A DNA stretch of 64,000 nt from Pseudomonas sp. URMO17WK12:I2 (GTDB taxonomy: Bacteria; Pseudomonadota; Gammaproteobacteria; Pseudomonadales; Pseudomonadaceae), in NCBI RefSeq assembly GCF_003253735.1, contig NZ_QKYW01000001.1, positions 62,001 through 126,000 on the forward strand, in the 5' to 3' direction. Positions 34,887-45,341 of the stretch are shown one piece after another. The position numbers were made by a program, and so were the translations under genes. Every line of letters begins with the position of its first letter. The first letter of the stretch is position 1. The notes below the pieces were generated by a model that was not told the origin of the DNA, searched no databases, and saw only the letters and a list, made by a program, of their open reading frames with translations.

Positions 34887-34985
34887 CGCACAACAGCGGT
34901 GCGCAGCGCACCAATAGAAGTCAGCTGATGCGCTGTCATTAGGGCAGCGCGTCACGGGTAGCCTGCTATGGCGGGCTCTGCCAAG

Positions 34986-35003
34986 TTGGCACACTCCCTG
35001 CTC
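34986..35003 (+). promoter_or_regulatory. Sigma-54 (-24/-12) promoter of the nitrate reductase operon
   Basis: TTGGCACACTCCCTGCTC has GG (34988-34989) and GC (35000-35001) separated by exactly ten bases and matches the TGGCAC-N5-TTGC consensus well. It implies RpoN and probably NtrC control. No other sigma-54-like site was seen in this gap. Confidence 0.75.
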
Positions 35004-35029
35004 TTCACCTTCAAGACATAGCGCGCGCC

Positions 35030-35106
35030 GGCAAACGGCACGCTCCCCGAACGATCGGGACCGGACAAAGGCGTCCTTGCACTCACGGTGCAGGACGCTT
35101 TTTTTT
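35030..35106 (+). terminator. Leader attenuator before the nitrate reductase operon
   Basis: GCCG-GCAAA-CGGC (about 35028-35040) is followed by CCCG-AACGAT-CGGG (35046-35059). The latter's six-base loop has A first and G fourth, as in ANTAR-protein RNA targets. Next come GGACAAAGGCGTCC and a near-perfect terminator (stem 35071-35082/35088-35098, then eight T). It lies 40 bases before the start codon and should stop transcription unless antiterminated. Confidence 0.8.
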
Positions 35107-35146
35107 GGCCTCGCGGTCGCCTGGGCTGGCTCCATGGAGGTGAAGG

Positions 35147-36412
35147 ATGAAGCGACTGAAACTGGTGATGATCGGCAACGGCATGGCCGGCGTGCGCACG
35201 CTCGAAGAGCTGTTGAAGATCGCCCCGGATCTCTATGACATCACCGTGTTCGGCGCCGAACCGCACCCCAACTACAACCGCATCCTGCTCTCGCCGGTAC
35301 TGGCCGGTGAGCAGACCTTCGATGACATAGTGCTCAACGACCTCGCCTGGTACGCCAGCCACGGCATCGAGCTGCGCCTGGGCCGCACCGTGGTGGAGAT
35401 CGACCGCGTGCGTCGCCGGGTACTCGCCGATGACGGCAGCAGCGCAGCCTACGACCGCCTGCTGATCGCCACCGGTTCGCGGCCGTTCATGCTGCCGATC
35501 CCCGGCAACACGCTGGACGGTGTGATCGGCTACCGCGACATCGCCGACACCCGCCTGATGCTCGACAGCGCCACCCGGCACCGCCGCGCCGTGGTCATCG
35601 GCGGCGGCCTGCTGGGCCTGGAAGCCGCCCACGGCCTGACGCTGCGCGGCATGGACGTCAGCGTGGTGCACAACGGCGCGACCCTGCTGGAGCGCCAGCT
35701 CGATGCCCGCGCCGGGCGCCTGTTGCAAAGCGCCCTGGAGCGCCGCGGCCTGCACTTCGCCCTGGGCAAGCAGACCAGTGAGCTGATCGGCAACGCCGCC
35801 GGCCGGGTTGGCGCCGTGCGCTTTAGCGATGGCGAACAACTGCCCGCCGACCTGGTGGTGATGGCTGCCGGCATTCGCGCCAATATCGAACTGGCCCAGA
35901 ACGCCGGCCTGCCCTGCGCACGCGGCATTCTGGTCGACGACACGCTGCAGAGCTTCGACCCACGGGTGTACGCGGTGGGCGAATGCGTCAGCCACAGGGG
36001 CGTCGCCTATGGCCTGGTGGCGCCGTTATTCGAGCAGGCGCGGGTGTGCGCCAGCCACCTGGCCATGCAGGGCTTTCGCCGCTACCTCGGCTCGTTGAGC
36101 TCGACCAAGCTCAAGGTCACCGGCATCGAGTTGTTTTCTGCTGGGGATTTCGCAGGCCACCCGGGCACCCAGAGCATCACCCTGGACGATCCAACCACCG
36201 GCAGCTACCGCAAGCTGGTGCTGAAGAACGACCTACTGGTCGGCGCCTGCCTGTACGGCGACACCGCTGACGCTGCCTGGTACCTGCAGCTGATCCGCGA
36301 AGGCCGTAACGTGGCGGATATCCGCGACCTGCTGATGTTCGGCGAGCACGCCGTCGCCAGTCTCGCGCCGACGACGCCTGCCGAACCGATGCTTCTGCAA
36401 GGGGCGGCCTGA
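35147..36412 (+). CDS. NirB/NasC-like FAD- and NAD(P)H-dependent reductase of nitrate assimilation
   Basis: 421 residues, cytoplasmic. FAD site LVMIGNGMAGVRTLEEL at the N-terminus; NAD(P)H site AVVIGGGLLGLEAAHGL (about 147-163); FAD-binding end DPRVYAVGECVSHRGVAYGLVAPLFEQA. It corresponds to the flavin half of nitrite reductase NirB, but the heme and iron-sulfur half (another ~430 residues) is absent. Such short forms resemble NasC, the electron donor subunit of assimilatory nitrate reductase in Klebsiella. Its stop codon overlaps the start of the nitrate reductase gene by one base (TGATG), so coupled expression as donor and catalytic subunit is likely. GGAGGTGAAGG gives a clear start. Confidence 0.88.
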   Translation: MKRLKLVMIGNGMAGVRTLEELLKIAPDLYDITVFGAEPHPNYNRILLSPVLAGEQTFDDIVLNDLAWYASHGIELRLGRTVVEIDRVRRRVLADDGSSAAYDRLLIATGSRPFMLPIPGNTLDGVIGYRDIADTRLMLDSATRHRRAVVIGGGLLGLEAAHGLTLRGMDVSVVHNGATLLERQLDARAGRLLQSALERRGLHFALGKQTSELIGNAAGRVGAVRFSDGEQLPADLVVMAAGIRANIELAQNAGLPCARGILVDDTLQSFDPRVYAVGECVSHRGVAYGLVAPLFEQARVCASHLAMQGFRRYLGSLSSTKLKVTGIELFSAGDFAGHPGTQSITLDDPTTGSYRKLVLKNDLLVGACLYGDTADAAWYLQLIREGRNVADIRDLLMFGEHAVASLAPTTPAEPMLLQGAA

Positions 36413-39153
36413 TGAGCGGCCGCGCCACGCACTCCACCGCCTCGACCTGCTGCTACTGCGGCGTCGGCTGCGGCGTACTGATCGAGCATGACGGCGAGCG
36501 CATCCTCGGTGTCAGTGGCGACCCGGCGCACCCGGCCAATTTCGGCAAGCTGTGCAGCAAGGGCGCTTCGCTGCACCTGACCGGCGACCTCGCCGCCCGC
36601 GCGCTGTATCCCGAACTGCGCCTGGGCAAGGGCCTGGGCCGTACTCGCACCGACTGGAACAGTGCCCTGGATCACGCCGCCGAGGTATTCGCCGACACCA
36701 TCCGCGAACACGGCCCGGACAGCGTCGCCTTCTACATTTCCGGGCAGTTGCTGACCGAGGACTACTACGCCTTCAACAAGCTGGCCCGCGCCCTGGTCGG
36801 CACCAACAATATCGACAGCAATTCGCGCCTGTGCATGTCCTCGGCGGTGGTCGGCTACAAACGCAGCCTGGGCGCCGATGCGCCGCCCTGCTCATACGAA
36901 GACATCGAGCAGGCCCACACCCTGCTGATCATCGGCAGCAACATGGCCTACGCCCACCCGATCCTGTTTCGGCGCCTGGAAGCGGCCAAGGCCGACAATC
37001 CAGAGATGAAGGTGATCGTCGTCGACCCGCGGCGCACCGACACCTGCGCAGTGGCCGACCTGCACCTGGCCATCGCCCCCGGCAGCGATGTGGCGCTGCT
37101 GCACGGCGTATTGCATCTGTTGCTGGAACAAGGACGGATCGACCACGCCTTTATCGCGGCCCACACCGAAGGTTTCGATTCGCTGCAAACCCTGGTCGCC
37201 GACTACCCACCCGCCCGCGTCGCCGAGCTGTGCGCCATCGACGAAGCCGACTTGCGCCGCTGCGCCGACTGGATCGGCAGCTCGCCGCGCTTTCTGTCGC
37301 TGTGGTGCATGGGCGTCAACCAATCCACCGCCGGTACCGCCAAGAACGCCGCGATCATCAACCTGCACCTGGCCACCGGGCAGATCGGCAAGATCGGCAG
37401 CGGGCCCTTTTCCCTCACCGGCCAACCCAATGCCATGGGCGGTCGGGAAACCGGCAGCCTGTCCAACCTGCTACCGGGCCACCGTGAGGTCGCCAATCCC
37501 GAGCACCGCGCCGAAGTCGCCGCCTACTGGGGCGTCGACACGCTGCCGGAAACGCCGGGGCTTAGCGCTATCGAACTGTTCGACGCGGTGGGCAGCGGCA
37601 AGATCAAGGCGCTGTGGATAGCCTGCACCAACCCGGCTCAATCGATGCCCGACCAGCACAAGGTTCATCAGGCCCTGCGCGACTGCCCGTTCGTGGTGGT
37701 GCAGGAAGCGTTCACGACCACTGAAACCTGCCGCTATGCCGACCTGCTGCTGCCCGCTGCCAGCTGGGGCGAAAAGGAAGGCACGGTGACCAACTCCGAG
37801 CGCCGCGTCAGTCGCGTGCGCCGTGCGGTAGCGGCACCTGGCGAGGCGCGCGCCGACTGGGCGATTACCTGCGACTTCGCCCGCCGCCTGGAAGCCCGGC
37901 TGCCAGCTACAGCTGTCGGCCTTTTCGCCTTCAACAAACCCGAGCAACTGTTCGAGGAATACAAGGTGCTGACCCGTCGGCGCGACCTGGACCTGAGTGG
38001 GCTCGGTTATGCCCTGCTGGAAGCGCGTGGCCCACAGCAATGGCCATTTCCCGAAGGAGCCAGACAAGGTACGACGCGCCTCTATGGTGATGGCCATTTC
38101 CCAAGCGCCAGTGGTCGCGCACGCTTTATCACCGAGGCGTATCAGCCACCCAGGGAGCAACGCGATGAACGCTATCCGCTGACGCTCAACACCGGTCGTT
38201 TGCGTGACCAGTGGCACGGCATGAGCCGCACCGGCACCGCAGCGCGGCTGTTCGCCCATGTCGAAGAACCGCTGCTCGGCCTGCACCCCCAGGACATGGC
38301 GCAGCGGCAGTTGCAGGACGGCGCACTGGTCGAGGTGCGCAGCCGCCGTGGCGCGCTGGTGCTGCGTGTGCAGGTCGATAACAGCCTGCAAGCGGGGCAG
38401 GCCTTCCTGCCGATGCACTGGGGCGATCGCTTTCTCAAGGGGCTGGGCATCAATGCCCTGACCCTGCCAGCCTTCGATCCACTGTCCAGGCAACCCGAGT
38501 TCAAGCACGCGGGTATCGAAGTGCAGGCCATCGAACTGCCCTGGACCTTCCAGGCGCTGATCGAGGGCGATGTACAACAACGCCTGGAAGCGCTACGCCC
38601 GCTATGTGAGCGCTTCGCCTATGCCAGCTTTGGCCTGGTCGGTCGCGATACCTCAGCCCTGATGCTGCGCGCCGCCCATCATCACGCCCCCGCGGCGGAG
38701 CTGCTCGATCAGCTGCACCAGCAGCTTGGCCTGAGCAATGGCCCGCTGATGCGCTACGACGACCCGCGCGAAGGCCAGGGCTGCATGCCCATTCACAAAC
38801 GCGTGCGCATCGAAGATGGCCGCCTCACCGGTTTTGCCCTGAGTGGCGAAACCCGAGCACGCAACTGGCTGCGCGAACTCTGGCAGAACCAGACCTCACT
38901 CGATGACGACAGCGGCCGCGCCTTGCGCCGCTGGCTGCTGGCGCCCGTGGAAAGCCCACCCGGTGAAACCCGCGCACGTGCTGGCAAAACCTTGTGCACC
39001 TGCATGAACGTCAGCGAAACCGCCGTGCGCGAGGGCATCGAGCGCGGCTGCGACCTGAATGCGCTGAAACAGAATCTCGGTTGCGGCACTCAGTGCGGCT
39101 CCTGCGTACCGGAAATCAAGCGCCTGCTGGCGCTGCAGACCATCGAAGCCTAG
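36412..39153 (+). CDS. nasA: Assimilatory nitrate reductase, molybdenum catalytic subunit
   Basis: 913 residues, cytoplasmic. Reduces nitrate to nitrite. The N-terminal [4Fe-4S] motif is C13-x2-C16-x3-C20 with Cys48 (KLCSKG). The Mo-bis-MGD domains follow (NIDSNSRLCMSSAVVGYK, GSNMAYAHPILFRRLEAAK, WCMGVNQSTAGTAKNAAIINLHLATGQIG, GRETGSLSNLLPGHR) and then the molydopterin-binding domain (LNTGRLRDQWHGMSRTG). The last ~60 residues form a BFD-like [2Fe-2S] domain (LCTCMNVSETAVREGIERG...CGTQCGSC), which takes electrons from the reductase. Length fits NasA. Confidence 0.95.
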   Translation: MSGRATHSTASTCCYCGVGCGVLIEHDGERILGVSGDPAHPANFGKLCSKGASLHLTGDLAARALYPELRLGKGLGRTRTDWNSALDHAAEVFADTIREHGPDSVAFYISGQLLTEDYYAFNKLARALVGTNNIDSNSRLCMSSAVVGYKRSLGADAPPCSYEDIEQAHTLLIIGSNMAYAHPILFRRLEAAKADNPEMKVIVVDPRRTDTCAVADLHLAIAPGSDVALLHGVLHLLLEQGRIDHAFIAAHTEGFDSLQTLVADYPPARVAELCAIDEADLRRCADWIGSSPRFLSLWCMGVNQSTAGTAKNAAIINLHLATGQIGKIGSGPFSLTGQPNAMGGRETGSLSNLLPGHREVANPEHRAEVAAYWGVDTLPETPGLSAIELFDAVGSGKIKALWIACTNPAQSMPDQHKVHQALRDCPFVVVQEAFTTTETCRYADLLLPAASWGEKEGTVTNSERRVSRVRRAVAAPGEARADWAITCDFARRLEARLPATAVGLFAFNKPEQLFEEYKVLTRRRDLDLSGLGYALLEARGPQQWPFPEGARQGTTRLYGDGHFPSASGRARFITEAYQPPREQRDERYPLTLNTGRLRDQWHGMSRTGTAARLFAHVEEPLLGLHPQDMAQRQLQDGALVEVRSRRGALVLRVQVDNSLQAGQAFLPMHWGDRFLKGLGINALTLPAFDPLSRQPEFKHAGIEVQAIELPWTFQALIEGDVQQRLEALRPLCERFAYASFGLVGRDTSALMLRAAHHHAPAAELLDQLHQQLGLSNGPLMRYDDPREGQGCMPIHKRVRIEDGRLTGFALSGETRARNWLRELWQNQTSLDDDSGRALRRWLLAPVESPPGETRARAGKTLCTCMNVSETAVREGIERGCDLNALKQNLGCGTQCGSCVPEIKRLLALQTIEA

Positions 39154-39208
39154 CGAAAAACTGGGAAATACGAGAACCCTGCTCAAGTCTCGCGAGCTAG
39201 AGCAATGC

Positions 39209-39345
39209 AAGGCCTAGGCGGCCCCGCAAAAACAGGCGAGGACCGGTCGGAGTCGCGCTCGACTTTACGAGTTGTAAATGAGCAGTCCGACTGGGCTGGC
39301 ATTCCAGCCTGTTTTTAACGCCGCAGGGCCGACGCGCAGCAGACT
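39209..39345. repeat. Structured intergenic palindrome, possible relative of the 30771 element
   Basis: AAAAACAGGC (39228-39237) pairs with GCCTGTTTTT (39307-39316), with further pairing of GGCCC/GGGCC outside. The loop contains CTTTACGAGTTGTAAATGAG, similar in layout to the loop of the 30771 element (TTTA-N7-TAAATGAG). It lies between nasA and cobA. Confidence 0.5.
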
Positions 39346-39375
39346 TTAGCTGGTTCTAAAGAGAGGAATACCGTG

Positions 39376-40122
39376 ATGAATCCAAGCGTATGGCTGATCG
39401 GCGCCGGCCCCGGCGACCCGGAACTGCTCACTCTCAAGGCGGTGCGCGCCCTCGGTCTGGCCGATGTGGTACTGATCGATGATCTGGTCAACCCACAGGT
39501 GCTGGAGCACTGCCCTGGCGCCCGGGTGCTTCGCGTCGGCAAGCGTGGCGGCTGCCGCTCGACGCCACAAGCGTTCATCCACCGCCTGATGCTGCGCTAC
39601 GCCCGCCAGGGCAAGGTAGTGGCGCGCCTCAAGGGCGGCGACCCATGCATTTTTGGCCGCGGCGGCGAAGAAGCCGAGTGGCTGGCCGAGCGCGGCGTGC
39701 ACTGCGAGATCGTCAACGGCATCACCGCCGGCCTGGCTGCGGCGACTCGCTGCGGCATATCCCTGACCCTGCGCGGCATCGCCCGTGGGGTGACGCTGGT
39801 CACCGCCCATACCCAGGACGGCAGCTCGCCGAACTGGCAGGCGCTGGCCCAGGGTGGCACCACGCTGGTGGTGTACATGGGCATCGCTACCCTGGCCGAC
39901 ACCCGCCAACACCTGCTCGATGCGGGCATGACGGCAGACACCGCAGTGGCGATGATCGAAAACGCCTCGCTGCCCGATCAGCGCGAATGCCGCAGCACGC
40001 TGCAGGCGATGGCCGATGACGCCCAGGCCTTCAAGCTGAAGAGTCCGGCCATTCTGGTGATCGGCGATGTGGTCGGCGCGGCCACTCTGGCGGTCGAACA
40101 GCTGCAATTGCACAGTGCCTGA
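39376..40122 (+). CDS. cobA: Uroporphyrinogen-III C-methyltransferase
   Basis: 248 residues. Transfers two methyl groups from SAM to uroporphyrinogen III to give precorrin-2, precursor of siroheme (nitrite and sulfite reductases) and cobalamin. Signatures: VWLIGAGPGDPELLTLKAVRAL, RVGKRGG, VVARLKGGDPCIFGRGGEEAEWL, VVNGITAGLAAA (as EIVNGITAGLAAATRCG) and TLVVYMGI. It is a stand-alone CobA without the CysG dehydrogenase/ferrochelatase half. GAGAGGAA at 39361 and ATG at 39376 define the start; a GTG three bases upstream is also in frame. Position after nasA fits siroheme supply for nitrite reduction. Confidence 0.95.
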   Translation: MNPSVWLIGAGPGDPELLTLKAVRALGLADVVLIDDLVNPQVLEHCPGARVLRVGKRGGCRSTPQAFIHRLMLRYARQGKVVARLKGGDPCIFGRGGEEAEWLAERGVHCEIVNGITAGLAAATRCGISLTLRGIARGVTLVTAHTQDGSSPNWQALAQGGTTLVVYMGIATLADTRQHLLDAGMTADTAVAMIENASLPDQRECRSTLQAMADDAQAFKLKSPAILVIGDVVGAATLAVEQLQLHSA

Positions 40123-40262
40123 AGGCGGCTGGCAATGCGCGCTTGAGCCCGGAGGAGGCTCATCGTAGAGCCCCGCCGCGTCCCTGACAGGTAGCACCGC
40201 AGCCAAGCTGGACTGCTAATTGCACTGTTCTGGTTCAACACTGCGACCGATAAGACGCCCCC

Positions 40263-41570
40263 ATGCCCGATCACAAAATGCCTCCCACCCTGCGTTTCAT
40301 GCTCGCCGCCCGCCGTTGCGAGCTGCAGAGCCTGGAAAGCCTGTCCGTCACCTGCGAGCTGGTCACCCGGATCAGCCAACTGGTGCACCAGTTGCAAAAG
40401 GAACGGGGCTATTCGAACGTCTATCTGGGCAATCAGACGGATCGCTACCTGCACCATCTTGATGCACACAGCGCAGGTTCCGCGGCCGTGGAGCGCGAGG
40501 TGCACGACTTTTTTGTGTCCATGGATATCGCCCAGGCCAACACCGCCGACCGCGCCCGCCTGTTCAGCCGTATCGCCTACGTGCTGCACGGCTTCGAAGA
40601 ACTGCCCGGCATGCGCCGGCGTATCCGCGAGCGGCACCTGTCTCCTCGCCAGGCGACTCAGGCCTTTACCCGGTTGATTGGCGGGCTGCTGGCGGTGGTC
40701 TTCGAAGCAGCTGATACCGCCGTAGATCCGGGTATCACCCGGGTGCTGGTGGCGCTGTTCAACTTCATGCAGGGCAAGGAACTCGCCGGCCAGGAGCGTG
40801 CGGTCGGCGTCGAAGGTTTTTCTCGCGGTTACTTCGATGACGAGCTGCAAGCGCGACTGCTGCACCTGCAGGAAGGCCAGGAGCGCTGCTTCGACATATT
40901 CGGCGAATTCGCCGACGCCGAGGCCAACGCCCTGTGGCAACAAATCCTCAGCACCGATACCGTAGTCCAGGTGATCAGCCTGCGCGGCGTCGCCAAGCGC
41001 ACCTCGGTCGAAGCGCAAATAGATCCGGGGTTGTGCGAACCGTGGTTCGAGCTCAACACCCTGCGCATCGACGCCATGAAACAGGTCGAAAGCCACCTGA
41101 CCCAACGCCTGCTCGAACGCTGCCGGCGCAGCATCGCCGAAGCCCATGCCGACCTGGATAACCACCGCGCGCTGCTCGGCCGCGTGGCACAGATGGATGC
41201 CGGTAGCGACCAGGCGCTGCTGTTCAGCGTGCACAGCAGCACCCTCGACGTCCCACCTCAGGACGCCGTAGGCAACCACCTGGCCCGCTCGGTGCTGGAC
41301 CTTCTCCATGAGCAGAACCAGCGCCTGCAGCAGGTCAGTGACGAGCTGCAGGAAACCCGCGAAACGCTCAATGAGCGCAAGCTGATCGAACGCGCCAAGA
41401 AGCTGCTGATGAACGACTACCGTCTCAGCGAGGAAGACGCTTACGCGCGCCTGCGCCAATCGGCCATGGAGCGCAGCATGCGCCTGGTCGACGTCGCTCA
41501 GAGCCTGCTCACCTTCGCCGCGCGCAAGGGCCAGGAAAAGCCGCGAAGCGACAAGGCCCGGCGCGGCTGA
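40263..41570 (+). CDS. nasR: Nitrate/nitrite-sensing ANTAR antiterminator, NasR-like
   Basis: 435 residues, cytoplasmic. The N-terminal two-thirds (about 35-300) form an all-helical NIT nitrate/nitrite-sensing domain: ITRISQLVHQLQKERGYSNVYLG and FSRIAYVLHGFEELPGMRRRI. The last ~60 residues (KLIERAKKLLMNDYRLSEEDAYARLRQSAMERSMRLVDVAQSLL) are an ANTAR RNA-binding domain. In Klebsiella NasR, nitrate binding lets ANTAR bind the nasF leader and prevent termination. Both nitrate operons here have leader terminators, so this protein is their probable regulator. Its gene lies between them and has no leader terminator of its own that I can see. Confidence 0.9.
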   Translation: MPDHKMPPTLRFMLAARRCELQSLESLSVTCELVTRISQLVHQLQKERGYSNVYLGNQTDRYLHHLDAHSAGSAAVEREVHDFFVSMDIAQANTADRARLFSRIAYVLHGFEELPGMRRRIRERHLSPRQATQAFTRLIGGLLAVVFEAADTAVDPGITRVLVALFNFMQGKELAGQERAVGVEGFSRGYFDDELQARLLHLQEGQERCFDIFGEFADAEANALWQQILSTDTVVQVISLRGVAKRTSVEAQIDPGLCEPWFELNTLRIDAMKQVESHLTQRLLERCRRSIAEAHADLDNHRALLGRVAQMDAGSDQALLFSVHSSTLDVPPQDAVGNHLARSVLDLLHEQNQRLQQVSDELQETRETLNERKLIERAKKLLMNDYRLSEEDAYARLRQSAMERSMRLVDVAQSLLTFAARKGQEKPRSDKARRG

Positions 41571-41680
41571 GAAAGCTGTGCTTTCTGCCGAGCATCACTC
41601 GCCAGCCCCGCTTGGAATCTGCTCACGAGCATTCGGCGTAAGCCATCCGTCATGGCTGCAAGGTGGCGAAAGCGGCCCCT

Positions 41681-41756
41681 CGTAGGGTGGACGACGCTTC
41701 ATCCGTCCACCGCTCTACCATCGCAATGGTGGACAAAAAAGCGTTGTCCACCTACG
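41681..41756. repeat. GTAGGGTGGA-type intergenic palindrome
   Basis: CGTAGGGTGGACGACGCTT pairs with AAGCGTTGTCCACCTACG at the other end; an inner pair GTCCACC/GGTGGAC gives a second hairpin. The GTAGGGTGG end is familiar from pseudomonad intergenic repeats. Confidence 0.75.
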
Positions 41757-41770
41757 GGCTGATGATTACT

Positions 41771-41855
41771 TGTGGGAGCGGGCCATGCCCGCGAAAAATC
41801 ACGGGCATGGCCCGTTCCCACAGGTAAAGCAACGATGTCCGCTTCTGCCTTATTG
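41771..41855. repeat. REP-like palindrome, copy B, with conserved flank
   Basis: TTGTGGGAGCGGGCCATGCC and its inverted partner GGCATGGCCCGTTCCCACA, separated by CGCGAAAAATCACG. The right flank (41820-41855, CAGGTAAAGCAACGATGTCC and onward to GCTTCTGCCTT) is identical, inverted, to the left flank of copy C. The remaining gap between nasR and nrtA (41571-42285) holds the 41681 repeat, this element and the nrtA leader; otherwise nothing recognisable. Confidence 0.85.
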
Positions 41856-42135
41856 CTGCCTATCCATCGCAAGAAGAGTGTCCCGATACATAGAGGCCAT
41901 AAAGCGCTGAGCGCAGTGCTACCGGCCCAAGCCCGACCCTGTCATGCACCTGCGCCGCGCACTGGAGGCGTCCCGCGCCCCGCTGCTGTGCGATAGCGAC
42001 GGTGACCCGCGTGCTGCGCGGATGGCCATGATGTACCGAAAACGATCCGAAAAGCCTTCCCGCTCAGGCAGTTAACACATCGGTACAGGCTGCTCTGCGG
42101 TCACCACCTGGCCGTCGATTGGGACGACGCAATGG

Positions 42136-42153
42136 CTGGCATGCAACCTGCTA
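42136..42153 (+). promoter_or_regulatory. Sigma-54 (-24/-12) promoter of the nitrate transport operon
   Basis: CTGGCATGCAACCTGCTA has GG (42138-42139) and GC (42150-42151) exactly ten bases apart, matching the TGGCAC-N5-TTGC consensus closely. It parallels the site before the nitrate reductase operon. Confidence 0.75.
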
Positions 42154-42162
42154 AGTCCCTGA

Positions 42163-42260
42163 CAGGGAGGCAGGCTCTGCCCTCCACAATCCGAATTCTG
42201 GACAACGGCGTCCACACTCGACGCAGCCCTGCGCTGCCATGAGCGTGACGCCGTTTTTTT
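42163..42260 (+). terminator. Leader attenuator before the nitrate transport operon
   Basis: From the predicted start point a stable hairpin GGAGGCAG/CTGCCCTCC is followed by GGACAACGGCGTCC, matching 13 of 14 bases of the same element in the reductase leader. A terminator stem follows (AACGGCGTCCACACTC with GAGCGTGACGCCGTT, one bulge and one mismatch), then seven T. It ends 26 bases before the nrtA start. It should block expression unless antiterminated, most likely by the NasR-like protein. Confidence 0.8.
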
Positions 42261-42285: not shown

Positions 42286-43617
42286 ATGGACGACACGCCA
42301 CGCGAACAGCAGAACGCCGAACAAAAAGCCGGCCTGCCACGCCGCACGTTCCTCAAGCAGTCCATGGGGCTGCTGGGCGGTGGTGCCTTGATGAGCCTGC
42401 TGCCGGCGGGCCTGAGCAGTGCGGTCTGGGCTGCCGGCAGCGACGGCCTGGAAACCACCAAGGCCAGGCTTGGCTTTATCGCGCTCACCGATGCCGCGCC
42501 GCTGTTCGTCGCCGAAGAGCTGGGGCTGTTCGCCAAGCACGGCATGACCGACGTGGAAGTGCTCAAGCAATCCTCCTGGGGCACCACCCGCGACAACCTG
42601 GTACTCGGCGCCGGCAGTGGCGGTATCGACGGGGCCCATATCCTCACCCCGATGCCCTACCTGATGGCCGCCGGCAAGATCACCACCAATAACACGCCGC
42701 TGCCGATGGTCCTGCTGGCACGCCTGAACCTCAATGGCCAGGGCATCTCGATCAGCAAGGAATACGCGGACCTCAAGCTCGGTACCGACGCCAGCGCCTT
42801 CAAGCAGGCGGTCGCCGCCAAGCAGGCCAAGGGCCAGAAGATCGCGGCGGCGATGACCTTCCCCGGCGGCACCCATGACCTGTGGCTGCGCTACTGGATG
42901 GCCGCCGGCGGCATCGAGCCGAACAAGGACTTGCCGACCGTGGTCATTCCGCCGCCGCAGATGGTCGCCAACATGAAGGTCGGCAGCATGGACGCCTTCT
43001 GCGTCGGTGAGCCGTGGAACGCCCAGCTGATCAACCAGAACATCGGCTACAGCGCGGTAACTACTGGCGAGCTGTGGGCCAACCACCCGGAAAAGGCCCT
43101 GTCACTGCGCGCCGATTATGTCGCCGCCAACCCCAACGCTACCCGCGCCCTGCTCAAGGCGGTGATGGAAGCGCAGATGTTCTGCGAAGCGGCGGCGAAC
43201 AAGGAACAGGTCGCCGAAATCTGCGCCAAGCGCCGCTGGATCGGTGCCCCGGCCAAGGATCTGCTGGCCCGCCTGCAGGGCAACTTCGATTACGGCAATG
43301 GCCGCGTAGTGGAAAACAGCCCGCACCTGATGCGCTTCTGGAGCGAATTCGCCTCCTATCCCTTCCAGAGCCACGACCTGTGGTTCCTAACCGAAAACAA
43401 ACGCTGGGGCTACCTGCCGAAGGATTTCGACAGCCAGGCGCTGATCGACCAGGTCAACCGCGAGGACATCTGGCGCCAGGCTGCCGCCGAGCTGGGCGTG
43501 CCTGCCGAGCAAATTCCCCAGGGCAAATCCCGCGGTATCGAGACCTTCTTCGACGGCAAGACCTTCGACCCAGAAAACCCGCAAGCCTATCTCGACAGCC
43601 TGGCCCTGAAGGCCTAA
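42286..43617 (+). CDS. nrtA: ABC nitrate importer, Tat-exported substrate-binding protein (NrtA/NasF-like)
   Basis: 443 residues. A twin-arginine signal (PRRTFLKQSMGLLGGGALMSLLPAG) points to export of the folded protein. The CmpA/NrtA binding domain follows: RLGFIALTDAAPLFVAEELGLFAKHGM, SSWGTTRDNLVLGAGSGGIDGAHILTPMPY, TFPGGTHDLWLRYWMAAGG and VGSMDAFCVGEPWN, all typical of nitrate/bicarbonate receptors. The start is set by GGGGAGAA just upstream; an earlier in-frame ATG lies inside the leader. Three genes form the transport operon. Confidence 0.94.
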   Translation: MDDTPREQQNAEQKAGLPRRTFLKQSMGLLGGGALMSLLPAGLSSAVWAAGSDGLETTKARLGFIALTDAAPLFVAEELGLFAKHGMTDVEVLKQSSWGTTRDNLVLGAGSGGIDGAHILTPMPYLMAAGKITTNNTPLPMVLLARLNLNGQGISISKEYADLKLGTDASAFKQAVAAKQAKGQKIAAAMTFPGGTHDLWLRYWMAAGGIEPNKDLPTVVIPPPQMVANMKVGSMDAFCVGEPWNAQLINQNIGYSAVTTGELWANHPEKALSLRADYVAANPNATRALLKAVMEAQMFCEAAANKEQVAEICAKRRWIGAPAKDLLARLQGNFDYGNGRVVENSPHLMRFWSEFASYPFQSHDLWFLTENKRWGYLPKDFDSQALIDQVNREDIWRQAAAELGVPAEQIPQGKSRGIETFFDGKTFDPENPQAYLDSLALKA

Positions 43618-43630
43618 CCGGAGAAACGCC

Positions 43631-44476
43631 ATGAATGCGCCCGTAAAATCGCTGGCCTTACCGGCTGGCGTCATCGCTCCAAGCTGGCTGAAACGCCTGT
43701 CGACAACCCTGATGCAGTCGGTACTGCCACCGCTGGTGATCACCGCCGCGTTGATACTGATCTGGCAACTGTTGTGCAGCGGCTCGAACGCCGCCCTGCC
43801 ACCGCCCAGTCAGGTGATCGAAGACACCTGGGAGCTGATCATCAACCCGTTCTACGACAACGGCGGCACCGATGTCGGCATGGCCTGGCAGCTACTCGCC
43901 AGCCTCGAACGCGTGGCCTACGGCTATGCCCTGGCAGTGGTGGTGGGTGTAGCGCTCGGCGTGCTGGTCGGCCAGTCGACCTGGGCGATGCGCGGCCTTG
44001 ACCCGCTGTTCCAGATCCTGCGTACCGTGCCGCCGCTGGCCTGGCTGCCGCTGTCGCTGGCCGGCTTCAAGGACAGCCACCCTTCGGCGCTGTTCGTGAT
44101 CTTCATCACCGCCATCTGGCCGATCATCATCAACACCTCGGTGGGCATCCGCAACATTCCCGAGGACTATCGCAACGTCGCCAAGGTGCTGCGCCTCAAC
44201 GGACTGGAGTACTTCCACAAGATCATGCTGCCGGCCGCCGCGCCGTACATCTTCTCCGGGCTGCGCATCGGCGTGGGTCTGTCCTGGCTGGCGATCATCG
44301 CCGCCGAGATGCTTATCGGCGGCGTGGGTATCGGCTTCTTCATCTGGGATGCGTGGAACGCATCGCGCATCAGCGACATCATTCTTGCCCTGGTCTACGT
44401 CGGCGTGGTCGGTTTCATACTCGATCGCCTGGTGTTGTTCGTCGGCAATCGCATCACCCGCGGCACATCGGCCTGA
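43631..44476 (+). CDS. nrtB: ABC nitrate importer permease (NrtB-like)
   Basis: 281 residues with about six membrane helices. The binding-protein-dependent permease EAA loop is EDYRNVAKVLRLNGLEYFHKIMLPAAAPYIFSGLRIGVGLSW, the contact site for the ATPase. LRTVPPLAWLPLSLAGF is a family signature. It begins 13 bases after nrtA with GGAGAAACGCC upstream, and its stop overlaps the ribosome-binding site of nrtD. Confidence 0.95.
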   Translation: MNAPVKSLALPAGVIAPSWLKRLSTTLMQSVLPPLVITAALILIWQLLCSGSNAALPPPSQVIEDTWELIINPFYDNGGTDVGMAWQLLASLERVAYGYALAVVVGVALGVLVGQSTWAMRGLDPLFQILRTVPPLAWLPLSLAGFKDSHPSALFVIFITAIWPIIINTSVGIRNIPEDYRNVAKVLRLNGLEYFHKIMLPAAAPYIFSGLRIGVGLSWLAIIAAEMLIGGVGIGFFIWDAWNASRISDIILALVYVGVVGFILDRLVLFVGNRITRGTSA

Positions 44477-44486
44477 GGAGACGGAC

Positions 44487-45341
44487 ATGAGCAAGCACTA
44501 CCTGAGCATCGAGCATGTGGAAAAGTACTTCGAGCGTGACGGCGTCAGCTCCCACGTACTGAACCAGATCAACCTCAACGTCGAGCGCGGCGAATACATT
44601 TCCATCATCGGCCATTCCGGTTGTGGCAAGTCGACGGTGCTGAACATCGTCGCCGGCCTTACCGACTCCAGCAGCGGCGCGGTGATTCTCGACGGCCGCG
44701 AGGTGCGCGGCCCCGGCCCGGACCGCAGCCTGGTGTTCCAGAACCACTCGCTGCTGCCCTGGCTGACCGTGCAGGAGAACGTCGCCCTGGCCGTCGACAA
44801 GGTGTTCAAGCGCACCAAGAGCAAGGCCGAGCGCCGCGAATGGACGCTGCATCATCTGGAACTGGTGAGCATGGGCCATGCACTGCACAAGCGACCCAGC
44901 GAGATTTCCGGTGGCATGAAGCAACGCGTCGGCATCGCCCGCGCGCTGGCCATGGAACCCAAGGTACTGCTCCTCGACGAGCCGTTCGGCGCGCTGGACG
45001 CCCTGACCCGTGCGCACCTGCAGGATGAAGTGATGCGCATCCAGAGCGAACTGCACAACACGGTGATGATGATCACCCACGACGTCGACGAAGCGGTGCT
45101 GCTCTCCGACCGCATCGTGATGATGACCAATGGCCCGTCGGCGACCATCGGCGAGATTCTCACCATCGACCTGCCACGGCCACGCGACCGCATCGCCCTG
45201 GCGGACGACCCGCGCTACAACGCCTATCGACACGCTGTGCTGAGCTTCCTCCATGAGAAGCAGCGCAAGGTCGAACCGTTGAGCACACGGCGCAGCACGC
45301 TGGTCACAGAGCCTGCTACCAAGCAGCGCGCCCGCGCCTGA
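44487..45341 (+). CDS. nrtD: ABC nitrate importer ATPase (NrtD/CmpD-like)
   Basis: 284 residues. Walker A GHSGCGKST, signature ISGGMKQRVGIARALAMEP, Walker B VLLLDEPFGALDALTR and switch MMITHDVDEAV. It is a single ATPase without the extra binding domain of NrtC, so two copies probably drive the importer. GAGGAG upstream fixes the start; the longer open frame runs back into nrtB. Confidence 0.95.
   Translation: MSKHYLSIEHVEKYFERDGVSSHVLNQINLNVERGEYISIIGHSGCGKSTVLNIVAGLTDSSSGAVILDGREVRGPGPDRSLVFQNHSLLPWLTVQENVALAVDKVFKRTKSKAERREWTLHHLELVSMGHALHKRPSEISGGMKQRVGIARALAMEPKVLLLDEPFGALDALTRAHLQDEVMRIQSELHNTVMMITHDVDEAVLLSDRIVMMTNGPSATIGEILTIDLPRPRDRIALADDPRYNAYRHAVLSFLHEKQRKVEPLSTRRSTLVTEPATKQRARA

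Follow-up and report, generated by a model that had tools for sequence, protein, structure and literature searches.

Nitrate operons of a Pseudomonas strain lie behind predicted ANTAR-type leaders with one or two hexaloops

Here we describe the leader RNAs of two nitrate operons in a 64,000-nt stretch of Pseudomonas sp. URMO17WK12:I2 (contig NZ_QKYW01000001.1, positions 62,001 to 126,000; hereafter the window), which codes for a putative assimilatory nitrate reductase, for a nitrate transporter and, between them, for a regulator that combines a NIT and an ANTAR domain (NIT-ANTAR; Table 1). The genome holding the window has 5.28 Mb in 29 contigs and a completeness of 100%. Comparison of the leaders with those of relatives makes it highly probable that both operons are started by sigma-54 and NtrC and are then subject to nitrate-dependent antitermination by NIT-ANTAR through one leader hairpin (P2), with the same protein probably serving at least three leaders. 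According to this model, the sigma-54 promoter of each operon would be fired, probably by NtrC under nitrogen limitation. Without nitrate, the terminator of the leader would form and a short leader RNA would be released, of the kind called P11 in P. aeruginosa; with nitrate or nitrite, the NIT domain would free the ANTAR domain, which would bind the hexaloop of P2. As P2 uses the 5' arm of the terminator, holding it would block termination and the operon would be read. The leaders served by the single NIT-ANTAR would be at least those of the reductase operon, with two A1/G4 hexaloops (A at the first position, G at the fourth), of the transporter operon, with one, and of nirB, also with one. 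From the sequences we infer the binding of the protein, its response to nitrate, the activation by NtrC and the functionality of the one-hexaloop leaders.

Both window leaders contain a P2 hairpin with an A1/G4 hexaloop that overlaps an intrinsic terminator, the arrangement of ANTAR targets. The two P2 blocks are equal at 13 of 14 positions, as the initial annotation of this DNA had pointed out; what it missed is that the block is itself the second ANTAR hairpin, and that its 3' half is the 5' arm of the terminator. Folding predicts that P2 and the terminator are mutually exclusive in both leaders, as whole leaders give the terminator, which absorbs the P2 loop, and leaders cut before the terminator 3' arm give P2. 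Scanning both strands of the window for A1/G4 hexaloops whose 3' side pairs with an arm before a T-run returned three places, two of them being these leaders, with sigma-54 sites (10 of 12 positions) at -79 and -66, and the third a weak one with no sigma-54 site. The U-tracts end at 35106 (reductase) and 42260 (transporter), that is, 40 and 25 nt before the start codons; the annotation had called these terminators strong and had put the spacing at 26 to 40 nt. Its A1/G4 hexaloop CCCG-AACGAT-CGGG in the reductase leader, which we call P1, was recovered. Of the stable hairpins that it had described, the one of the transporter leader carries no A1/G4 hexaloop.

The reductase leader is a divergent copy of the Rfam family P11, which is the only Rfam match above threshold. 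The transporter leader scores far below the P11 cut-off (17.9 bits versus 70). Of 298 genomes sampled from the genus, 205 have P11 at E 1e-3 and 178 exceed the cut-off; weak copies can be missed because the search filters are strict.

Leaders of both kinds recur among relatives. We fetched 80 loci solely by similarity to the NIT-ANTAR protein. In 66 of them a gene for a nitrate-binding protein follows within 1.5 kb, and in 55 of the 66 this gene is preceded by a leader that combines P2, terminator and sigma-54 site. The reductase leader is present in all ten NIT-ANTAR loci of close relatives that hold the reductase gene; in the more distant loci with a reductase gene, a leader lies within 500 nt in one of nine. 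For alignment, we collected 43 reductase/P11 leaders from 48 sources and 40 transporter leaders from 69 sources, dropping exact copies. These sets were selected by P2, terminator and sigma-54-like site (for the reductase set, an exact match of P2 to GGACAAAGGC was required), so that the conservation of P2 and promoter within them is partly or wholly built in, the upstream hexaloop being free to vary. The gene that follows is the reductase gene in all 43 reductase/P11 leaders and nrtA in all 40 transporter leaders.

The terminator covaries across relatives in both leader families, as came out of the comparison across pseudomonads that the initial annotation had suggested. The structures were taken from one aligned sequence, which favours them. 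In the 43 reductase/P11 leaders, five terminator pairs are altered on both sides, and P2, by which the set was selected, is invariant. The transporter alignment comprises 37 of the 40 leaders, with the near-copies L058, L067 and L074 left out (L and G numbers are our handles for loci and genomes, C numbers for contigs). Here, P2-loop positions 5 and 6 each take part in a terminator pair; both pairs are kept in all 37 leaders, 4 and 9 sequences having changes on both sides, and the loops AACGGC, AACGGT and AACGAT are matched by terminator arms such as GACGCCG, GACACCG and GACATCG. Compared with 500 shuffles, pairing, double-changed cells and covariation score were above all of them, and the number of pairs changed on both sides was reached by 14. 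As the P2-loop bases covary with the terminator arm, the terminator is built in part from the same bases that ANTAR would read.

The regulator, which the annotation had correctly placed between the operons, follows the reductase operon on the same strand and has both domains in one protein (PF08376, 185.9 bits; PF03861, 62.7 bits). Its best match among solved structures, covering both parts, is the nitrate regulatory protein 4akk (E 5e-54), and its closest relatives among named genomes are in P. punonensis (94%), Pseudomonas sp. G34 (93%), and P. argentinensis and P. straminea (both 92%). A response to nitrate would be expected from the NIT domain and the NasR relative. By motif spacing, residues Y394 and M402 stand at the places of Tyr164 and Met172, which contact RNA in EutV (PMC8934654; this and the other papers are cited from excerpts). 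In the window and the 80 loci, the first of these positions is Y in 63, H in 17 and F in 1, and the second is M in 81 of 81. A domain search of the genome found no ANTAR protein other than this one, and NasT gave no match in it at E 1e-20. Two open frames of about 655 amino acids elsewhere in the genome (G000:C12:140712-141443 and G000:C1:257075-257863) are 27% identical to the NIT part of the regulator and are possibly nitrate chemoreceptors.

Most sampled genomes of the genus, 264 of 298, do have NasT. Full-length NIT-ANTAR homologues (E < 1e-100) are found in 12 genomes, five with NasT and seven without. Among the 34 genomes without NasT, P11 (E 1e-3) occurs in four of the seven with NIT-ANTAR versus two of the 27 with neither protein, these two being assemblies only 88% and 77% complete; among those with NasT it occurs in 199 of 264. 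Genomes absent from the printed lists were assigned to these classes by elimination. The four genomes with P11 and NIT-ANTAR but no NasT form two groups, one made up of our genome (G000), G146 and G163, in which reductase leader, NIT-ANTAR and transporter adjoin one another, and the other of G017, with P11 and the transporter leader 1.2 Mb apart. The presence of P11 in both NasT and NIT-ANTAR-only genomes suggests that the same RNA family goes mostly with a two-protein sensor and, in at least two lineages, with a one-piece sensor.

A third leader, also missed by the initial annotation, lies outside the window ahead of nirB (C1:830234-832615, minus strand). It has the promoter of the transporter operon in identical form (CTGGCATGCAACCTGCT), a P2 AGGC-AAAGAC-GCCT and an overlapping terminator, with the ATG 81 nt after the start of the P2 GGC; no A1/G4 hexaloop was seen upstream of P2. 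Before P2 there is a CACA..CCGAATCC stretch similar to the CACAA..CGAAT of the transporter leader. P. matsuisoli has a like leader with one hexaloop (CAGGC-AAAGGC-GCCTG) ahead of a gene for a NirB/NasB-like reductase, 37% identical to that of the window. With leaders at the transporter, reductase and nirB genes, uptake, nitrate reduction and nitrite reduction would all lie behind such elements, two of the three with a single hexaloop.

A covariance model of P2 plus terminator (R1), built from 25 of 49 pieces, had no matches in the genome at E < 0.1 beyond the two leaders of the window. The regulon of two leaders that this implied was rejected, as a search at nirB and a 12-mer pattern showed the third; R1 is thus not exhaustive. 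The pattern GRCAAMGRYGYC, a check that covers only leaders fitting it, has 88 matches in the genome (87 stretches), and P2, terminator and sigma-54 site occur together in three, which are the reductase, transporter and nirB leaders. One more of the 87 stretches (L158) has a hexaloop with terminator, away from its pattern site and with no sigma-54 site. In other genomes, two-hexaloop leaders of the ANTAR type, with terminator and sigma-54 site, stand directly ahead of a methyl-accepting chemotaxis gene (PF00015; L254 in G125:C10 and L258 in G082:C111), in G082 about 2 kb from a transporter leader, which suggests a chemoreceptor made only with nitrate present. Weak R1 matches (E 0.002 to 0.004; L255, L256 and L257) upstream of nasS-nasT in NasT genomes, at which a stricter scan sees no P2, are possibly a sign of autoregulation.

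The leaders differ in the number of hexaloops. An A1/G4 hexaloop upstream of P2 (stem of at least 4) is present in 42 of the 43 reductase/P11 leaders, with 1.0 expected from shuffles. In P11 leaders of NasT genomes, P2 and the positions -17/-18 and about -41 each bear such a hexaloop, and of 28 distinct leaders 26 have two or more ahead of P2; these 28 are not a random sample, since they are among the best P11 scores. The reductase leaders of the P. straminea group keep one upstream hexaloop. The dual motif with an upstream P1 is thus present in the reductase leader of the window and not in the transporter or nirB leaders. Among the 40 transporter leaders, all from Pseudomonadaceae, one has an upstream A1/G4 hexaloop (0.5 expected) and one has such a hexaloop downstream of P2, and a 5' hairpin of -3 kcal/mol or lower is present in all 40 (no shuffle control). 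We interpret this as the hexaloop missing in this lineage of transporter leaders while the 5' hairpin stays. In NIT-ANTAR loci of betaproteobacteria and Nitrincola, the upstream hexaloop is found in 10 of 12 leaders ahead of the binding-protein gene; the set from which these 12 were sorted out has 15 rows from 13 loci, with rows of other P2 loops dropped, and includes L095 twice, the L101 leader preceding a siroheme gene and the L111 leader preceding the reductase gene. Four NrtA-like leaders of NasT genomes (L250 to L253) have two hexaloops. Two candidate explanations were rejected: the loss of the distal P11 hexaloop does not go with NIT-ANTAR, as G017, with NIT-ANTAR only, keeps three hexaloops, and a longer path to the U-tract does not compensate for the single hexaloop, as dual-hexaloop transporter leaders of other bacteria have a similar or longer one. 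A two-hexaloop leader with P2 GGAC-AAAGGC-GTCC is seen in P. oryzihabitans and relatives (L088 to L093); in L088 it lies behind the transporter genes and ahead of a siroheme methyltransferase gene, and is P11-like at 48.3 bits, below the cut-off.

Both window operons have the near-consensus sigma-54 site with GG-N10-GC described in the annotation, its conservation being partly built into the selection of leaders. The reductase site, with one mismatch to the pattern, is invariant in the 43 aligned leaders, partly selected for such a site. Taken alone, a sigma-54-like site is not rarer than chance in the 64-kb window, with 22 matches of up to two mismatches versus 28.5 expected, the transporter site (three mismatches) not being among them. 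A gapped pattern joining sigma-54 site and hexaloop gave 39 matches, including both window leaders, versus 12 in the reversed control. Upstream of both promoters there are NtrC-like palindromes, scored against the NtrC consensus; that of the transporter lies 172 to 174 nt upstream of the -24 box in close relatives. The best scores average 8.9 versus 7.6 in shuffles for the 43 reductase/P11 leaders and 9.55 versus 7.7 for the 40 transporter leaders, these sequences being related and such matches common by chance in the window. The nirB leader reaches only 8 of 12. In P. stutzeri A1501, NtrC is needed for the expression of nasB and nasF (PMC8443478).

Several observations weigh against control of this kind at all three leaders. 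The two-hairpin rule fails at two of them, which makes antitermination less certain there. The NtrC sites are weak consensus matches, of a quality common in the window by chance. More leaders may exist, given that R1 missed the one at nirB. P11 gave no match, under the strict search filters, in three of the seven NIT-ANTAR-only genomes, and no leader is seen at the adjoining binding-protein gene in 11 of the 66 NIT-ANTAR loci (L053, L054, L088 to L093 and L099 to L101). NIT-ANTAR loci hold 19 close homologues of the reductase (>60%), eight of which have no leader within 500 nt, all eight in loci titled as non-Pseudomonas, and the number of further pair types in the transporter alignment is not above shuffles (125 of 500 reach it). 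The annotation's prediction of RpoN/NtrC control with antitermination at both loci nevertheless appears the best reading, given the exclusive folds, the covariation and an ANTAR protein found where NasT was not; only the reductase leader has the two-hexaloop target, and for NtrC there are consensus matches only.

How the one-hexaloop leaders would work is the main question of interpretation. The published models differ, with one ANTAR dimer holding both hairpins together (PMC3369936) or sequential binding, in which EutV touches a single hexaloop at any one time and P1 is suggested to act as recruiter (PMC8934654), the latter allowing for single ANTAR sites where the transcribing polymerase imposes no time limit. 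With nitrate or nitrite, NasR binds to RNA with two hairpins at about 1 uM, whereas for a single P2 the value is about 12 uM (PMC7496416). The transporter and nirB leaders misfit the recruiter picture, so either one hexaloop suffices or some other element replaces P1, and we consider the first somewhat more likely. We tentatively propose that both are natural single-hexaloop antiterminators, the P2 of which is caught by the ANTAR dimer during transcription without a recruitment hexaloop. One NIT-ANTAR would then read one- and two-hexaloop leaders in the same cell (with the three-hexaloop P11 in another species), the number of hexaloops could set the strength of response of each operon, and the RNA target would have outlived a swap of sensors between NasS-NasT and NIT-ANTAR.

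It is also possible, if doubtful, that the transporter leader has a working first site other than an A1/G4 hexaloop, either a different loop or the CACAA..CGAAT stretch that links the 5' hairpin to P2, so that two contacts are made after all. The constant 5' hairpin is consistent with this idea, as are the five of 40 transporter leaders that can form an upstream G4 hexaloop with any base at position 1 and the partly conserved stretch before P2, with its counterpart at nirB. However, the loops predicted for the 5' hairpin have anything between 3 and 11 nt and no sequence in common, and in EutV G4 is the sole base-specific contact and Met172 may filter out smaller loops (PMC8934654).

That the transporter and nirB leaders are plain attenuators, with nitrate control at the reductase leader only, we regard as unlikely. 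They do have just one A1/G4 hexaloop each, and the binding of NasR to a single P2 is roughly tenfold weaker. However, P2 leaders stand ahead of most binding-protein genes in loci that were fetched by the protein alone, P2 stays while the 5' part varies freely (in 40 leaders selected for P2), and there is covariation between P2 loop and terminator arm. Very unlikely, too, is that the released leader is mainly a trans-acting small RNA whose place ahead of the operon is incidental, as might be thought from the Rfam name "Pseudomonas sRNA P11" and from the effects of P. aeruginosa P11 on Caenorhabditis elegans (PMC10977744). Against this, all 43 leaders sit between promoter and reductase gene, the terminator overlapping P2 covaries, and P11 has been described as a regulator of a nitrogen assimilation operon (PMC12080996); the released leader could serve in both ways. 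A riboswitch sensing nitrate or another metabolite, or a leader peptide, is hardly credible despite sharing the layout of terminator and alternative hairpin, as there is no ATG from the predicted start to the terminator of the reductase leader, conservation in the RNA falls mainly on stems and ANTAR loops, and no Rfam family other than P11 matches above threshold.

In outline, this is known biology, an antitermination of the NasR/NasT type with the known leader P11. P11 regulates a nitrogen assimilation operon in P. aeruginosa PA14 (PMC12080996) and has a role in C. elegans avoidance (PMC10977744). Among the literature matches listed, the excerpts of none state that P11 is an ANTAR leader, which may well be in print already. 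The P. aeruginosa P11 or nirBD leader is reportedly under NasS-NasT, according to work by Romeo (2012) and Marogi (2024) that we know by citation only. The reductase leader of the window shares with that leader its Rfam assignment, the promoter and the core of P2 and terminator, but the genome has NIT-ANTAR instead of NasT (none found) and the distal third hexaloop is absent. The NasR/nasF system of Klebsiella oxytoca is alike in its NIT-ANTAR protein, the terminator overlapped by an A1/G4 P2 and the nitrate operon (PMC3369936 and PMC7496416). It has one leader, at nasF, whereas in our genome three were found, with reductase, transporter and nirB each behind its own, and two of the three lack an A1/G4 P1. 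The eut leaders of EutV share the A1/G4 hexaloops and the P2 overlapping the terminator (PMC3369931 and PMC8934654), but they are dual, with P1 recruiting in the published model, and our transporter and nirB leaders show no such hexaloop.

The consensus of the Rfam narK RNA (RF03032) includes a sigma-54 box and a hairpin with a hexaloop, but the window leaders are below the threshold of this family (20.2 and 19.4 bits versus 43.2). The family has 16 matches (L259 to L274) in 15 of 369 genomes of the class, two of them above the cut-off. P1, P2 and terminator are present in 11 of the 16, three of these 11 without a sigma-54-like site, and one of the 16 has no such hairpin; a NasT-like or NIT-ANTAR gene lies in the fetched stretch in nine. 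By these features, the narK RNA matches would mostly be two-hexaloop leaders of the ANTAR type.

What seems new here are the single-hexaloop leaders and the change of regulator. In the excerpts of literature looked at, we did not find described one-hexaloop leaders (with little aimed searching), the sensor change on P11 or the link between narK RNA and ANTAR. Leaders with one, two and three hexaloops offer a natural test series for whether the first hairpin is required, and two of these kinds are apparently served by one protein in one genome. P11 and narK RNA, an Rfam motif printed without a regulator, would be tied to one mechanism, and the distribution of P11 suggests that one and the same RNA can work with different nitrate sensors.

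Table 1. Features of the two nitrate operons and their leaders in the window (positions counted from its first letter).
Feature	Position	Strand	Remarks
NtrC-like palindrome	34887..34903	+	9 of 12 consensus positions; 82 nt upstream of reductase -24 box; weak
Rfam RF00625 "P11" match	34975..35099	+	81.7 bits, cut-off 70
Sigma-54 promoter, reductase operon	34986..35001	+	TTGGCACACTCCCTGC; GG-N10-GC; predicted start about 35012
First hairpin, reductase leader	35023..35043	+	Where NasT-type P11 has its distal A1/G4 hexaloop, which is lacking here
P1, reductase leader	35046..35059	+	CCCG-AACGAT-CGGG; A1/G4 hexaloop; energy fold pairs A1 with U6
P2 antiterminator hairpin, reductase leader	35063..35076	+	GGAC-AAAGGC-GTCC (GGACAAAGGCGTCC); A1/G4 hexaloop
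Intrinsic terminator, reductase leader	35067..35106	+	5' arm takes in P2 loop and P2 3' strand
FAD/NAD(P) oxidoreductase	35147..36412	+	Resembles N-terminal half of NirB; probably electron-transfer subunit of nitrate reductase
Molybdopterin oxidoreductase, C-terminal BFD domain	36412..39153	+	Probably assimilatory nitrate reductase; below NCBIfam cut-offs
Uroporphyrinogen-III C-methyltransferase (siroheme synthesis)	39373..40122	+	
NIT-ANTAR regulator, NasR-like	40263..41570	+	NIT residues 39-283, ANTAR residues 364-416
NtrC-like palindrome	41945..41961	+	TGCACCTGCGCCGCGCA; 10 of 12 positions; 174 nt upstream of transporter -24 box
Sigma-54 promoter, transporter operon	42136..42151	+	CTGGCATGCAACCTGC; GG-N10-GC; predicted start about 42162
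Stable 5' hairpin, transporter leader	42166..42185	+	Without A1/G4 hexaloop
P2 antiterminator hairpin, transporter leader	42200..42213	+	GGAC-AACGGC-GTCC (GGACAACGGCGTCC); only A1/G4 hexaloop seen in this leader
Intrinsic terminator, transporter leader	42204..42260	+	Overlaps P2; compensatory changes across relatives
ABC transporter substrate-binding protein, NMT1_2 family, NrtA-like	42286..43617	+	
Nitrate ABC transporter permease	43631..44476	+	TIGR01183
Nitrate ABC transporter ATPase	44484..45341	+	TIGR01184; start codon inferred

Last, a hairpin followed by TTTTT at positions 39292-39316 of the window, between the nitrate reductase and methyltransferase genes, could part the NIT-ANTAR gene from the reductase transcript.

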